NCBI GenBank assembly: GCA_013361595.1
Contig: JABFXT010000084.1
Location: 1 to 14,964 of the forward strand
Direction: 5' to 3'
Origin: Nocardia sp.
Lineage (GTDB): Bacteria > Actinomycetota > Actinomycetes > Mycobacteriales > Mycobacteriaceae
Length of the DNA stretch: 14,964 bases
Below the pieces are notes generated by a model that searched no databases, was not told the origin of the DNA, and saw nothing but the letters and a program-made list of their open reading frames with translations. A program made the translations under genes and the position numbers. This document shows, piece by piece, positions 1,473-8,917 of this stretch; the first letter of the stretch is position 1, and every line of letters begins with the position of its first letter.

Positions 1473-1743
1473 GCAGTAGCGGATCACGGGTGCCCGGGCC
1501 GGGCGAGCCCGGATATCGAGGGTCGTCCCGGGTGTTCTCGCTCGCCGCGCGCGGCGACGAGGCCGCACACCGACAGCGGGCGGGCGCGCCCGGAGCGGCC
1601 GGTAACGGGTGACGGGGGAGTCTGCTTCGTCACCGCAGGTCGGGTGCGGGGTTCCGGGTTGCGTGCCGGTGACCAGGGAGAACAGTACTCGGCAGTAGGA
1701 GAAACGGCGGGCGAATATGGTTGCCATCCGCCCGGGGAGTCTT
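1473..1743. other. gene-free stretch after the porin gene
   Basis: About 270 bases with no supported gene. It contains GC-rich inverted repeats, including the self-complementary 12-mer CGGGCGCGCCCG at 1581-1592 and the repeated GCCCGGGC/CGGGCGAGCCCGG pattern near 1492-1513, but none has a T-run. The porin transcript must end here or run on toward the attenuator. Confidence 0.5.
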
Positions 1744-1749
1744 TATTCT
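1721..1749 (+). promoter_or_regulatory. sigma-70-type promoter for the attenuator/leuA-like transcript
   Basis: TTGCCA at 1721-1726 and TATTCT at 1744-1749 are separated by exactly 17 bases. Seven bases further on lies G1757, the first base of an in-frame GTG that opens the leader peptide, so the predicted transcript start and start codon coincide. Such leaderless starts are common in mycobacteria and relatives. Confidence 0.72.
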
Positions 1750-1756
1750 CGACCCC

Positions 1757-1891
1757 GTGCAAATTCCTGCCGCCGGCCTGTGCGCCGCGCCGATGCTCGC
1801 AGATCGCGACGGTGCGGTGCCCCTCTCGCGTACCGCGGAGTCGGCTCGTCGGCTACTTGCCGTAGTAGTAACCCGCCGTAGCGGGGTCTGA
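1757..1891 (+). CDS. leaderless leader peptide with Leu-Leu-Ala-Val-Val-Val control codons
   Basis: A 44-codon frame runs from GTG 1757-1759 to TGA 1889-1891. Its last 14 residues are RRLLAVVVTRRSGV, the signature I associate with actinobacterial ilv/leu leader peptides. The control codons are CTA CTT GCC GTA GTA GTA at 1853-1870; CTA and GTA are rare in this high-GC DNA, which would make a ribosome sensitive to charged leucine and valine tRNA. No ribosome site precedes GTG 1757, but it sits at the predicted transcript start. In-frame ATG 1793 and GTG 1817 are alternative starts, also without good ribosome sites. The peptide ends in the hairpin region that precedes the leuA-like gene. The product is probably not functional; translation through the frame is the signal. 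Confidence 0.75.
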   Translation: MQIPAAGLCAAPMLADRDGAVPLSRTAESARRLLAVVVTRRSGV

Positions 1892-1933
1892 TCCGGACCG
1901 GCCCCCTCGCTGCGGGCCCCCCTTTCTGCTTTT
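1872..1933 (+). promoter_or_regulatory. transcription attenuator: protector, antiterminator and terminator hairpins
   Basis: Three mutually exclusive pairings follow the control codons. The protector pairs CCCGC 1872-1876 with GCGGG 1881-1885 (5 bp, loop CGTA). The antiterminator pairs 1877-1886 with 1904-1914 (10 pairs including one G-U, T1907 bulged). The terminator pairs GGCCC 1900-1904 with GGGCC 1914-1918, followed after CCCC by TTTCTGCTTTT at 1923-1933. A ribosome stalled at the Leu/Val codons would cover the first protector arm and free the antiterminator. A ribosome reaching the stop at 1889 would cover the second arm and let the terminator form. The terminator stem is short and its T-run displaced, so read-through or a Rho contribution is possible. 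The layout is of the trp/ilv attenuation type. Confidence 0.62.
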
Positions 1934-1981
1934 GCTGGTCCCCCAAACCTGCCGACCATCTCTGGGAAGACCTACGTACTC

Positions 1982-2422
1982 ATGACCACACTGACTCTGG
2001 AAAACGACGCCCTGACCACGGCCGCCCCGCGTAGCCTGCGCACCGAATGCGCGGAACTGACGGCCGCCCAATTCCACGACCGCTACGGCGAATGCCCCGG
2101 TCCGATCCGGCTCGCGGGCTGGTCGTCCACCGGTGCGCACGGCGGCGCTTTCACCGCGACCCTCGAATTCGCCGGCTGGTCCCGTTCGGTCGTCGCGGCG
2201 GGTAGTCCGATCGCCGCCATGACCTCGGCGCTCTACGAAGCCGGCCATCCCGTCGAGATCCTGCGGTTCCACCAGCGTCGGACACCGGCGGGTACCGCGA
2301 CCTTCGTGCAATGCGAAAGCGACGGCCGTCGCGGCTGGGGCGCTGCCCTCGCCGCCGACGGTGCCGAGTCCTCGGTGCGGGCGATGATCGCCGGCGTCAA
2401 CCGGCTCGGCGCACTCGGCTGA
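1982..2422 (+). CDS. stand-alone 2-isopropylmalate synthase regulatory (LeuA dimer) domain protein
   Basis: A 146-residue protein whose C-terminal two thirds resemble the allosteric domain of LeuA and lack any catalytic TIM barrel. AGSPIAAMTSALYEAGHPVE (about residues 73-92) corresponds to the GNGPVAAFVDAL region of LeuA. FVQCESDGRRGWGAALAADG (108-127) and SSVRAMIAGVNRL (130-142) correspond to VECEVDGRVLWGVGIDPN and SLKAVVSAVNRA. In full-length LeuA this domain binds leucine and mediates feedback inhibition. The isolated domain could bind leucine itself or associate with the synthase; that is inference. The start ATG 1982 has GGGAAG at 1964-1969, a long 12-base spacing. It is the only gene behind the branched-chain attenuator, which supports a role in leucine/valine metabolism. 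It converges on the thioredoxin gene across a shared terminator. Confidence 0.75.
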   Translation: MTTLTLENDALTTAAPRSLRTECAELTAAQFHDRYGECPGPIRLAGWSSTGAHGGAFTATLEFAGWSRSVVAAGSPIAAMTSALYEAGHPVEILRFHQRRTPAGTATFVQCESDGRRGWGAALAADGAESSVRAMIAGVNRLGALG

Positions 2423-3714: not shown

Positions 3715-4620
3715 GTGTTCGAACGTTGCGGGATTCGGACGCGGTGGATGCTGTGCGGGTTGGTGGGTGTCCTGCTGGTGGCCGGGTGTGTGACCAATAT
3801 CGAGGACACCGGCCCGGTGCCGCCGAAGGTGCCGGTACCGCCGGTGGCCGCGCTGGCCGCGCGGGTGCCGCCGGATATCGCCGCGGCCGGTGAGCTGGTG
3901 GTCGGGGTGAACGTGCCGTATCAGCCGAACGAGTACCGCGACCGGCGCGGCGCGATCGTCGGTTTCGATATCGACCTGATGGACGCGGTCGCGGCGGTGC
4001 TCGGGATCCGGGCCCGCTATGCCGAATCGGCGTTCGAGAAGATCATCCCCGCGGTTCAGGCCGGTACCTACGATCTGGGCATGTCCTCGATCACCGATTC
4101 GGTGGAACGGGAGGAGCAGGTCGATTTCGTCACCTATTTCAGCGCCGGAGTGCAGTGGGCGCAGCGCACCGGTCACCACGTCGACCCCGGGAACGCCTGC
4201 GGCAAAAGGGTCGCGGTACAGGCCACCACCGTCGAACATATCGACGAAGTCCCGGCCAAGAGCGAAGCCTGTGTCGCGGCGGGGAAGGATCCGATCATCA
4301 TCGACGCCTTCGACGAACAGAGCGCGGTGACCAATGCGCTGGTACTCGGCCAGGTCGATGCCATGTCCGCGGATTCCCCGGTCACCGCGTACGCGATCAA
4401 ACAGACCGACGGCAAGATCGAACCGGCCGGCCCGGTCTTCGATTCGGCGCCCTACGGGTGGGCGGTCGCGAAGGGATCGCCGTTGGCGCCGGTGCTGCGC
4501 GACGCGGTGCAATATCTGATGAACAACGGGCAATACCGGCAGATCACCGAGAACTGGGGTGTCCAGGAGGGCGCATTGCGCACCTCCGTGATCAACGGCG
4601 CGAGGGAGTCGCTGCGATGA
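3715..4620 (+). CDS. polar amino acid ABC transporter, substrate-binding lipoprotein
   Basis: A 301-residue precursor of an extracytoplasmic solute-binding protein (family 3, GlnH/GluB-like). A hydrophobic N-terminus ends in the lipobox LVAGC (Cys25), so the mature protein is a membrane-anchored lipoprotein. A Pro/Val-rich linker (about 32-55) precedes the binding domain, which opens with [30 protein letters not shown] (79-93), [20 protein letters not shown] (116-135) and [14 protein letters not shown] [13 protein letters not shown] near the end are family hallmarks. Cys162 and Cys186 are probably a disulfide. The start GTG 3715 has AGGTGG at 3703-3708; ATG 3748 is a later alternative. Its TGA overlaps the permease ATG. 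The substrate is likely glutamate, glutamine or a similar polar amino acid, but not resolvable from sequence. Confidence 0.92.
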
Positions 4621-6432: not shown

Positions 6433-7851
6433 ATGGAAAACAGCGTTGCCGAGCCCGCCGTCACACTGAGCGGGGCCGCCGATAGCGAACTGGCCACCTT
6501 CGCGGCGCCGGTCTTCCGTCCGGGCGAGGACGGGTACGTGCGCGAGGTCTCCGGTTTCCAAACCGCCGACCGGCATCGGCCGGCCGTGGTCGTCGTCGCC
6601 CGGAACACCGAGGATGTGCGGGTGGCGGTCGATTTCGCCGCCCGGCACGGGCTGCCGGTGGCGGTTCAGGCGACCGGGCACGGCCTGTCCGTGGCCGCCG
6701 ACCGGGGGGTGCTGATCAGCACCCGGCTCCTGACCGATATCGCGATCGATCCCGCCGGCGCACGTGCCCGGATCGGTGCCGGGGTGCGGGCGGGTGATCT
6801 GGTCGCGGCGGCGGCGCGGTACGGGCTCGCGCCGCTGAACGGCTCGTCACCGTCGGTGGGGGTGGTCGGCTATGTACTGGGCGGTGGGATCGGGCTGCTG
6901 GCCCGGGCGTACGGGTACGCCGCCGATCATGTGCGTGCGTTCGATCTCGTCACCGCCGACGGCCGGGTACGGACGGTCCGGCCGGGTGCCGATCTCTTCG
7001 GCGCGGTCCTGGGCAGCGGCGGCAACTTCGGTGTCGTGACCGCGATGGAACTGGACCTGGTTCCGGTCACCGGTGTGTACGGGGGTCAGCTGGTTTTCGA
7101 TACGCCGCTGGTACCGCGCACGCTAGCGGCCTGGCGGGAATGGACCACCATGGTGCCCGATTCGGTCACCTCGACCGTCGCCATGCTGGACTTCCCGGCT
7201 GTCCCGGCGGTCCCCGAACCGCTGCGCGGGCGTTTCGCTGCCTCGATCCGGCTCGCCTTCGACGGTGACGTCCGGGAAGGCGAGCGCCTCGTGGCACCGT
7301 TGCGGGCGATCGGCACTCCGCTACGGGACGATCTGCGGGCGATGCCCTACACCGAATCGCACACCATCCACTCCGACCCCGATCATCCGCACGCCTATGC
7401 CGCCACCAACGCGCTGCTGGACGATCTCCCGCCGGATGCGCTGGCGGCACTGCTCGAGGTCGCGGGTCCCGACGCCGGGTACAGCGCGGTGATCGATATA
7501 CGCCACCTCGGCGGCGCGCTGCGCGGACCCGGGCGTACCGATCTCGCGCTGGGTCATCGGACGGCGGGCTATGTGGTCCGCGTGATCACCGCCCCGGAAC
7601 CCGGTGCCGAGCCGGGCGCACCCGTGCGCGCGGCCCTGGCGCCGTGGACGGTCGGCCACAGTCTCGCGTTCCTCTACGGTGCCGGGCACGCGGCCGGCGA
7701 CGCACAGACCCGGGGCGGCTACCGTGCCGCGACCTTCACCCGCCTGGCCGGGCTGAAGGCGAAGTACGACCCGGGAAATATGTTCCGCTTCAACCGCAAT
7801 ATCGCGCCGGCGGGCCGGGCCGGTGTCACCAGCGATGCACGCGCGCGGTGA
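6433..7851 (+). CDS. FAD-linked (BBE/VAO-type) oxidoreductase
   Basis: A 472-residue flavoprotein of the PCMH/VAO superfamily with a berberine-bridge-like C-terminus. The FAD domain begins RPAVVVVARNTEDVRVAVDFA (49-69), followed by VAVQATGHGLS with His83 at the usual 8-alpha-flavinylation site. NGSSPSVGVVGYVLGGGIGLL (136-156) is the second FAD segment. The Cys of bicovalent family members is Ser139 here, so at most a single covalent link is expected. The substrate domain follows, and KYDPGNMFRFNRNI near the end is the typical BBE motif. Such enzymes oxidise alcohols, sugars or secondary-metabolite intermediates; the substrate is unknown. No signal peptide is seen. The ribosome site before ATG 6433 is weak (GGATGA). 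The 3' end overlaps the convergent dehydrogenase gene by 26 bases. Confidence 0.88.
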   Translation: MENSVAEPAVTLSGAADSELATFAAPVFRPGEDGYVREVSGFQTADRHRPAVVVVARNTEDVRVAVDFAARHGLPVAVQATGHGLSVAADRGVLISTRLLTDIAIDPAGARARIGAGVRAGDLVAAAARYGLAPLNGSSPSVGVVGYVLGGGIGLLARAYGYAADHVRAFDLVTADGRVRTVRPGADLFGAVLGSGGNFGVVTAMELDLVPVTGVYGGQLVFDTPLVPRTLAAWREWTTMVPDSVTSTVAMLDFPAVPAVPEPLRGRFAASIRLAFDGDVREGERLVAPLRAIGTPLRDDLRAMPYTESHTIHSDPDHPHAYAATNALLDDLPPDALAALLEVAGPDAGYSAVIDIRHLGGALRGPGRTDLALGHRTAGYVVRVITAPEPGAEPGAPVRAALAPWTVGHSLAFLYGAGHAAGDAQTRGGYRAATFTRLAGLKAKYDPGNMFRFNRNIAPAGRAGVTSDARAR

Positions 7852-8917
7852 CCTGTTCGGTGAATTCGCTGGTCGATGCCTGGCCGCCGAGATCGGCCGT
7901 GGCGATTCCGGCGGCGAAGGTCGCCGCGATCGCGCGTTCGATCCGCTCGGCCGCCCGGGCCAGGACGGCCCGGTCGTGCCGGGTCGCCAGCCACCGCAGC
8001 AGCATGGCCGCGGACCGATGCAGGGCCACCGGATTCGCCCGATTGTGACCCGCCAGATCGGGTGCGGCCCCGTGCACCGCCTGGGCCATCGCCCGGTCGG
8101 CGGAGCAGTTCAGCGAGGCAGCGGTACCCAGTGACCCGCCGAGCTGGGCGGCGAGGTCGGAGAGGATATCGCCGAACAGGTTCTCGGTGACCAGCACATC
8201 GAAATCGCCGGGGGCGCGGACCAGATGAGCGGCGGCCGCGTCGACGTGTTCGTCGGTCACCGTTGTTCCGGGATATTCCGCCGCCACGGCGTAGCAGCTG
8301 TCGCGGAACAGGCCCATCGTCAGCGGTAGCACGTTCGCCTTGTGCACGACGGTCACCTTTCCGCGTCGGCTCGCGGCCAGCCGGAACGCCTCGTGCGCGA
8401 TCCGTTCGGAGGCCGCGCGGGTCACCAGACCGACCGACAGCGCGATATCCGGCGTGGGGCAGAACTCGCCGGATCCGACGGCCATGTTCCGGTCGGCGTA
8501 GAAACCTTCGCTGTTCTCGCGGACCACGACCAGGTCGATATCCGGCGCGGCCGCCGCGATGCCGGGGAACGCCTGCACCGGCCGGATATTCGCGTACAAC
8601 CCGAAATGGCGCCGGATCGCGCCGCCGGGCGCGAGGCGGTGCTCGGGCGGATAGGAGGCGTTGTCGTGCGGGCCCAGGAGCCAGCCGTCGGTATCGAGCA
8701 GGCCGGTGAGCGTCGATTCCGGTAGGGCGGTGCCGAATTCGGCGATCGCCCGGTGTCCTATCGGCAGCGGGACCCAGTCGATCGCGGGCACGCCGGTGGC
8801 GGCCAGTGCCTCGTCCATCACGCGCCGGGCCGAATTCACCACTTCCGGGCCGATCCCGTCGCCCTCGATCAGTCCCAGCCGTAGTCGTTCACCCTGTGCC
8901 TTCTGCTCCATCCGCAC
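7826..8917 (-). CDS. isocitrate/isopropylmalate dehydrogenase family protein
   Basis: A 363-residue beta-decarboxylating dehydrogenase. GLIEGDGIGPEVV (15-27) opens the fold, LYANIRPV (108-114 region) carries the substrate-binding Arg, and VVRENSEGFYADR (131-143) has catalytic Tyr140. Lys193 in VVHKANVL is the second catalytic residue. Asp226, Asp250 and Asp254 (in ENLFGDILSDLAAQLGG) are metal ligands. HGAAPDLAG has Asp287 where NADP enzymes carry Lys, suggesting NAD+. The usual GAVGxPxW loop of LeuB is replaced by LGPHDNASYPPEH (81-93), so this is probably not the housekeeping LeuB and the 2-hydroxyacid substrate is uncertain. The first codon is GTG 8917; ATG 8911 (Met3) is an equal alternative, neither with a strong ribosome site. 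It is convergent with the flavoprotein gene. Confidence 0.87.
   Translation of the reverse strand: MRMEQKAQGERLRLGLIEGDGIGPEVVNSARRVMDEALAATGVPAIDWVPLPIGHRAIAEFGTALPESTLTGLLDTDGWLLGPHDNASYPPEHRLAPGGAIRRHFGLYANIRPVQAFPGIAAAAPDIDLVVVRENSEGFYADRNMAVGSGEFCPTPDIALSVGLVTRAASERIAHEAFRLAASRRGKVTVVHKANVLPLTMGLFRDSCYAVAAEYPGTTVTDEHVDAAAAHLVRAPGDFDVLVTENLFGDILSDLAAQLGGSLGTAASLNCSADRAMAQAVHGAAPDLAGHNRANPVALHRSAAMLLRWLATRHDRAVLARAAERIERAIAATFAAGIATADLGGQASTSEFTEQVTARVHRW

Follow-up and report, generated by a model that had tools for sequence, protein, structure and literature searches.

The window, by which we mean the whole stretch of 14,964 nucleotides analysed here, derives from a Nocardia assembly. 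This origin fits the protein encoded at 1982-2422, which is 96% identical to its counterparts in N. jinanensis, N. rhamnosiphila and N. fusca. An MspA-type porin gene (738-1472; PF09203, E 1.9e-29) lies directly upstream of a leader element that extends to the start of the 1982-2422 gene. Below, elements in front of homologues of this gene are called small-gene elements and those of the kind found before leuA are called leuA-type. The features of the locus are as follows.

1721..1726, + strand: -35 hexamer TTGCCA; its TTGC is kept in most Nocardia alignment rows reaching that far
1744..1749, + strand: -10 hexamer TATTCT (TAnnnT), 17 nt after the -35 hexamer
1757..1891, + strand: leader peptide of 44 codons from GTG (1757) to TGA, probably leaderless; end conserved in 65/67 regions
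1853..1870, + strand: control codons CTA CTT GCC GTA GTA GTA (Leu Leu Ala Val Val Val); 57/57 selected small-gene leaders outside Nocardia have Val in this segment
1872-1876/1881-1885, + strand: P12, protector-like hairpin CCCGC/GCGGG; covariation weak outside the leuA-type elements
1876-1886/1904-1915, + strand: S1 helix, predicted pseudoknot stem 1, CCGTAGCGGGG / CCC-t-CGCTGCGG; 83 to 91 of 91 sequences paired per position
1895-1902/1934-1941, + strand: S2 helix, predicted pseudoknot stem 2, GGACCGGC / GCTGGTCC; six counted pairs in 81/91 sequences
1900-1904/1914-1918, + strand: T34 hairpin GGCCC/GGGCC, the terminator of an earlier note; excludes S1 and S2
1937-1940/1969-1972, + strand: possible sequestering stem GGTC/GACC beside GGGAAG, from a predicted fold; weak covariation
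1964..1969, + strand: GGGAAG, conserved in the alignment, likely the ribosome site of the gene
1982..2422, + strand: gene for a 146-aa protein, a stand-alone LeuA allosteric domain (PF08502, E 4.5e-6, its one Pfam match)

The earlier note, made from the DNA letters, had proposed a leaderless branched-chain amino acid attenuator at 1721..1933. Its TTGCCA-N17-TATTCT promoter, the GTG at the predicted transcript start and the 44-codon frame are all in place, and a pattern scan of 1480-2500 returned this promoter-like site and no other, where shuffles expect 0.1. The control codons are rare, as the note had remarked of CTA and GTA: in nine window genes CTA makes up 2.2% and CTT 0.9% of Leu codons, and GTA 4.3% of Val codons. 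The element reaches beyond 1933 to the gene start, and takes in the pseudoknot arm at 1934-1941 and the possible pairing of 1937-1940 with 1969-1972.

The note was also right that the target is not leuA itself. The product of 1982-2422 is a copy of a regulatory domain and not an enzyme. Its AlphaFold2 model (mean pLDDT 85.8) has M. tuberculosis LeuA (1sr9) as best match (E 2.8e-8, TM 0.68 on the query), and a profile built from 27 relatives matches the same LeuA protein (1sr9, 3fig). Matches to dsRNA-binding-like folds were weak (E 3.4e-3 and above) and were set aside. Because full-length LeuA with its own PF08502 domain is encoded elsewhere in nine complete Nocardia genomes, the small gene is an extra, free-standing copy of the LeuA regulatory part. 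In the window's own assembly (78% complete) the PF08502 matches are this gene and a LeuA paralogue, with no others, and the main leuA was not found there. Each of the 150 genus genomes searched gave a match; the weakest, in G109 (E 3e-6), an assembly that is 88% complete, may represent LeuA and not the small gene. Relatives of the protein often carry the database name '2-keto-3-deoxygluconate kinase', and one is called 'AmpD'; their domain content does not bear out these names. In the open-licence literature searched, we found no study of this widespread stand-alone LeuA domain protein.

The leader frame and its start

In the window, the leader frame (1757-1891) has the C-terminal end RRLLAVVVTRRSGV. 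Of the 67 different upstream regions compared (65 from Nocardia and 2 from Rhodococcus), all but two have an end of the form ..VVxRRS(G/E)V before the stop codon, with RRSGV in 63 and RRSEV in L060 and L063; this bears out the branched-chain leader peptide of the earlier note. The two misses are L017, which has an earlier TAG and ends ..RLLLVVARP, and L026, which is cut by the contig end.

A GTG with TAnnnT 7 nt (61) or 6 nt (1) upstream is found in 62/63 Nocardia regions with a leader, in a search that used a filter on the second codon; the one exception is L054, where the contig ends too soon. Likewise, TAnnnT stands 4-10 nt before an in-frame start in 57/57 small-gene loci outside Nocardia and 36/36 leuA-type loci, all of them selected. 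The same spacing precedes 133/7400 ATG/GTG anywhere in these loci, an uneven comparison in which the leaders had several in-frame starts to pick from and each control had one. This promoter spacing, kept across genus and family, suggests that leaders of both kinds are leaderless, as the earlier note had supposed for the window.

The note had considered both the leaderless start and the length of the leader unusual. The former has been reported for the leuA leader peptide LeuL1 of Streptomyces lividans, on RNA-seq evidence (PMC8079986). The latter is a Nocardia feature: leaders of the pattern-selected loci outside Nocardia have 13-16 codons (for example MKRLLVVHRRSGV, followed by the stop), and those of Nocardia exceed them by about 30 codons (window 1757-1850), their promoter lying farther upstream. 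Nocardia leaders range from 39 to 68 codons with the frame always kept, and the 64-68-codon leaders in 17/62 regions arise via an in-frame insert. The extension carries a weak coding signal, with entropies of 0.51/0.62/0.74 at the three codon positions of 54 different leaders and a synonymous share of 0.427 vs 0.284 under a uniform model that ignores GC bias.

An in-frame ATG lies 11-21 codons before the stop in 31/62 Nocardia regions, near the start used in other genera, and is perhaps the ancestral short start. Such an ATG could mean that the leader is translated from an internal codon and is not leaderless at all. Against this, the ATG is absent in the other 31 regions, the window among them, and the GTG spacing is kept in all but the truncated region, so that we find an internal start scarcely credible.

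Four leaders (L017, L146, L219 and L240) stop four codons short of the usual end, at a TAG that falls within the S1 arm, with control codons and core retained. It is as if the RRSGV tail mattered as RNA only and were dispensable as peptide. In L141, two extra bases keep the leader frame open beyond the usual stop.

Kinship with the LEU element

The leader MQRALLL(S/G)RRDGV, ending at a stop codon, stands before leuA in three Nocardia genomes, together with recognisably related sequence; a fourth region, L157, was unmatched by the pattern. The LEU element upstream of leuA in Actinobacteria has a leader with Leu codons, a pseudoknot and no obvious terminator (Seliverstov et al. 2005, PMC1262725). 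From its description in the text we infer that the leuA-type elements here are this published element. The small-gene element is its paralogue, with Leu/Val in the leader where the leuA leaders have Leu-Leu-Leu; the earlier note had missed both this kinship and the stand-alone LeuA domain as target. The window's element shares with the LEU element the short leader of branched-chain codons, the pseudoknot and the lack of an obvious terminator. S1 and S2 correspond, by its description, to the conserved pseudoknot. The two differ in their target, the published element lying upstream of leuA and the window's before a stand-alone PF08502 gene, and in that Val replaces part of the Leu run. Neither a stand-alone target nor Val appears in the text of PMC1262725.

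Other known leaders resemble the window's in part. Canestrari reportedly described leaderless polycysteine attenuators of mycobacteria in 2020; these are alike in using a leaderless short ORF as amino acid sensor and differ in sensing cysteine and in the genes involved. S. lividans LeuL1 (PMC8079986) is leaderless, reads MRFGLLLLSCRGEGL and has no typical terminator, like the window's element, and differs in its Leu codons and its full-length leuA. The ilvB1 attenuator of M. tuberculosis has LVVI control codons that include GUA, as here, and differs in its 166-nt leader, its intrinsic terminator and its enzyme operon (PMC13236596). The open-licence literature searched covers the LEU element, ilvB attenuation and the leuA leaders known from Corynebacterium and Streptomyces; it yielded no account of an element that has recoded codons or stands before a gene for a stand-alone LeuA domain. 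Rfam 15 covariance models, searched up to E 1, have no match in this place.

At DNA level, a 66-base core of the element has matches in 241/301 family genomes, from 24/31 genera. With the window protein as query, a downstream homologue was found in 18 of 20 loci from other genera. Once two further members were added as queries, a homologue lay at most 900 nt from the leader stop in 57/57 pattern-selected loci outside Nocardia, several of which come from the same genus. These 57 remain from 77 loci tried with the leader pattern, of which 7 were unmatched and 10 were repeat sequences; the 60 kept included three from Nocardia (L161, L189, L190). When the seven unmatched loci (L141, L146, L182, L205, L209, L210, L219) were re-read, L182 had the usual leader, L205 and L209 were leuA-type, L146 and L219 were small-gene elements with an early TAG, L141 had the open frame and L210 showed nothing.

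A covariance model built from 42 sequences found elements in 96/101 family genomes at E 0.1. At E 0.01 it matched 171/296 class genomes, a sample that includes family members and in which a lone weak match can be chance. Of 20 loci sampled beyond the family, 19 have a LeuA homologue downstream; in the remaining one, L255, the gene is leuB. A deeper covariance search of ten genomes returned three kinds of element, whose downstream genes are leuA, a leuA paralogue (52-59% identity) and the stand-alone domain gene; the two lowest of its matches that were read, L238 and L239, look like chance. A 22-base core word had 0 matches in viral contigs. The window's genome holds a second, LEU-type element (L229, G000:C411:1702-1797) with the leader MSHPELLLDRHGGA ahead of a stop codon; the gene that follows encodes a LeuA paralogue sharing 56% identity with LeuA. 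In L255 (G674:C2:166576-168776), which belongs to another family, the element occupies 201-299 and the gene 485-1531 is leuB (NF002898, E 6.9e-177). Its leader, MRRVLVITCRGGV and a stop, has Val/Ile codons before leuB, a second recoding with a different target.

Control codons and helices

The control segment contains Val in 57/57 small-gene leaders outside Nocardia vs 1/36 leuA-type leaders. Counted over six positions (codons 6-11 before the stop in small-gene and 5-10 in leuA-type leaders), the former hold 126 Val, 61 Leu and 18 Ile codons and the latter 111 Leu, 4 Val and 3 Ile. The Leu codons of the leuA-type vary synonymously (CTT 53, CTC 48, CTG 10), so the amino acid is what is conserved. 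For Val, where GTA accounts for 94/126 codons vs the 4.3% seen in window genes, this argument is weaker, because GTAGTA is nearly invariant as DNA and can pair with the linker outside Nocardia (a helix termed P0); RNA pairing, rather than the amino acid, could be what keeps the Val codons in place. In L142 and L146, for example, GTAGTT pairs with GAGCTAC or GAACTAC in the linker, and matched pairs beat swapped ones; this was not seen in Nocardia. Permutations did as well as the real P0 pairing in 0/2000 cases outside Nocardia, 1480/2000 in Nocardia and 1143/2000 in the leuA-type, and the latter two counts exclude P0 from the window's mechanism.

These codons bear on the 2005 proposal that a protein or ligand reads the pseudoknot of the LEU element (PMC1262725), in which case the leader peptide would be secondary. 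The very high DNA conservation of the core, the early leader stops in four loci and the mutational paradox quoted in PMC1262725 would suit such a reader. It is harder to square with leuA-type Leu codons that change synonymously while the amino acid stays, with a start spacing kept in all selected loci, with a codon identity that shifts with the target gene, and with control codons retained in the very leaders that stop early. We consider it very improbable.

P12, S1 and T34 share arms and are mutually exclusive, in the classical order that the earlier note had described. For S1 and S2, 91 loci were chosen from 259 and aligned, with 91/92 matches kept and a short reverse-strand match of L141 dropped. 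The 38 leuA-type sequences in this alignment include L240 (early TAG), L247 (leader not found) and L255 (leuB), which the 36-member leuA-type set excludes. S1 shows AU/GC/UA exchanges across 11 positions, with 83 to 91 of 91 sequences paired at each, counts that lean towards S1 since the alignment was fitted to it. For S2, counted with linker gaps closed towards the 3' side first, all six counted pairs are present in 81/91 sequences, and the maximum was 64 in 1000 trials in which 3' arms were shuffled among sequences. By subset, the pairs are complete in 33/36 small-gene sequences outside Nocardia (0/1000) and 31/38 leuA-type sequences (0/1000), and are uninformative in Nocardia, where every shuffle gave 17/17. 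On the 42 sequences, 97.7% of S2 cells are paired, with a covariation of 0.144 vs 0.105 shuffled and 0.027-0.080 slid. Relatedness among sequences stays in the S1 and S2 shuffle controls. On these alignments, the predicted pseudoknot of S1 and S2 covaries across small-gene and leuA-type elements.

The earlier note had proposed looking for compensatory changes in its three stems. They occur in S1 and also in T34; P12 is weak, and when Nocardia is taken by itself none of the helices is conspicuous, the best being S2 at 107/2000. One purine 3' of the stop codon co-changes with its partners in both T34 and S2: among 28 small-gene representatives outside Nocardia in which each of the three letters could be read, these are A/U/U in 20, G/C/C in 3, A/U/C in 3 and mixed with G-U in 2. 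This fits what two exclusive states would leave, with few independent events beneath it.

The order of the helices invites classical transcription attenuation, at least in this clade, with T34 as intrinsic terminator and S1 as antiterminator, and M. tuberculosis ilvB1 is regulated by termination (PMC13236596). A run of at least 4 T within 10 nt after T34, however, occurs in 0/56 small-gene elements outside Nocardia and 1/36 leuA-type elements. Nocardia is richer in T there (mean 4.7 of 10; 22/62 with such a run), and the longest run in the window is 3. The pattern scan gave one terminator-like site, at 1912-1929, where 0.5 are expected by chance; its stem is not that of T34. S2, moreover, covaries yet has no role in that model. 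The T-run is displaced and poor. The earlier note had itself called the terminator its weak part, with a short stem and displaced T-run, and the intrinsic terminator it proposed finds no backing in these counts. We regard classical attenuation as unlikely. As the T-run is not conserved, control of translation start is favoured over intrinsic termination.

Termination could instead depend on Rho, acting in the C-rich stretch after the leader and blocked by a stalled ribosome or by the pseudoknot. In its favour, there is no conserved intrinsic terminator, and Rho-dependent termination has been suggested for cys leaders (PMC1262725). It would leave the conserved gene-proximal GGGAAGACC and S2 unexplained, and seems to us quite unlikely.

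A proposed ribosome-gated pseudoknot

We consider it rather probable that the window holds a paralogue of the LEU element with Leu-Val-Val codons, which controls a stand-alone LeuA domain gene through a stalled ribosome, a pseudoknot and the start of translation. Comparison among genomes supports the leader, its codons, the promoter spacing, S1 and S2 as components. That the ribosome stalls, that events follow in the order given below, that Val is the signal and that translation is what is controlled are the parts that we infer.

The transcript would start at the GTG at 1757, and a ribosome would load on the 5' end without a ribosome site. If charged Val (and Leu) tRNA is short, this ribosome would stall at 1853-1870 and cover the 5' arm of P12. 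S1 could then form and exclude T34, and the arm after the stop codon would pair with 1934-1941 as S2. With S2 formed, 1934-1941 would no longer sequester, and the ribosome site at 1964-1969 would be free, giving the on state. If charged tRNA is ample, the ribosome would reach the stop codon and cover the 5' arms of S1 and S2; 1937-1940 would pair with 1969-1972, giving the off state. The off state would be the plain fold with P12, T34 and the stem beside GGGAAG. These three do form in the plain fold predicted for the window, in which the stretch 1757-1982 is not unusually stable (z -0.83; 36/200 shuffles equally stable).

Weak covariation of two stems counts against the mechanism. For the sequestering stem (1937-1940/1969-1972), permutations were as good in 55/2000 cases outside Nocardia, 156/2000 in Nocardia and 552/2000 in the leuA-type. 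For a stem between the codon run and the ribosome site, the base stem of the LEU element, the corresponding counts were 37/2000 in other genera, 686/2000 in Nocardia and 186/2000 in the leuA-type. The early-stop leaders and L141 fit a dispensable peptide tail, but would shift the position at which the ribosome ends.

The mechanism of the LEU element has been unsettled since the leader-codon mutations of S. coelicolor leuA and ilvB, whose results, by the account in PMC1262725, were at odds with classical attenuation. The Leu-to-Val swap offers a natural test of the mode of sensing, as the same layout occurs with other codons and another gene in the same genomes. The Val and Leu responses of both elements in one strain would separate sensing by the ribosome from a pseudoknot read by a protein or ligand. 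The element is, besides, a way into the study of the stand-alone LeuA domain protein, which is widespread. More broadly and quite tentatively, a single RNA architecture might be retuned in Actinobacteria through changes in its control codons. On this view, the LEU element would have been copied to a free-standing gene of the leucine-sensor type and recoded from Leu to Val (to Val/Ile before leuB in one genome), so that a valine-sensing RNA sets the amount of a protein akin to leucine sensors, where the valine and leucine pathways branch, by a ribosome-gated pseudoknot controlling translation. We rate this wider picture as possible rather than probable.

Two further genes of the window deserve mention. 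The solute-binding protein encoded at 3715-4620 aligns with the kinase model StpK7 over model residues 333-600 (E 4.7e-110) and lacks the kinase part; its gene adjoins putative permease and ABC ATPase frames. At 7826-8917 lies a dehydrogenase of the isopropylmalate/tartrate type, which scores under the cut-off of every NCBIfam model listed; its gene shares 26 bases with the 3' end of the oppositely oriented gene 6433-7851, which encodes an FAD oxidase.
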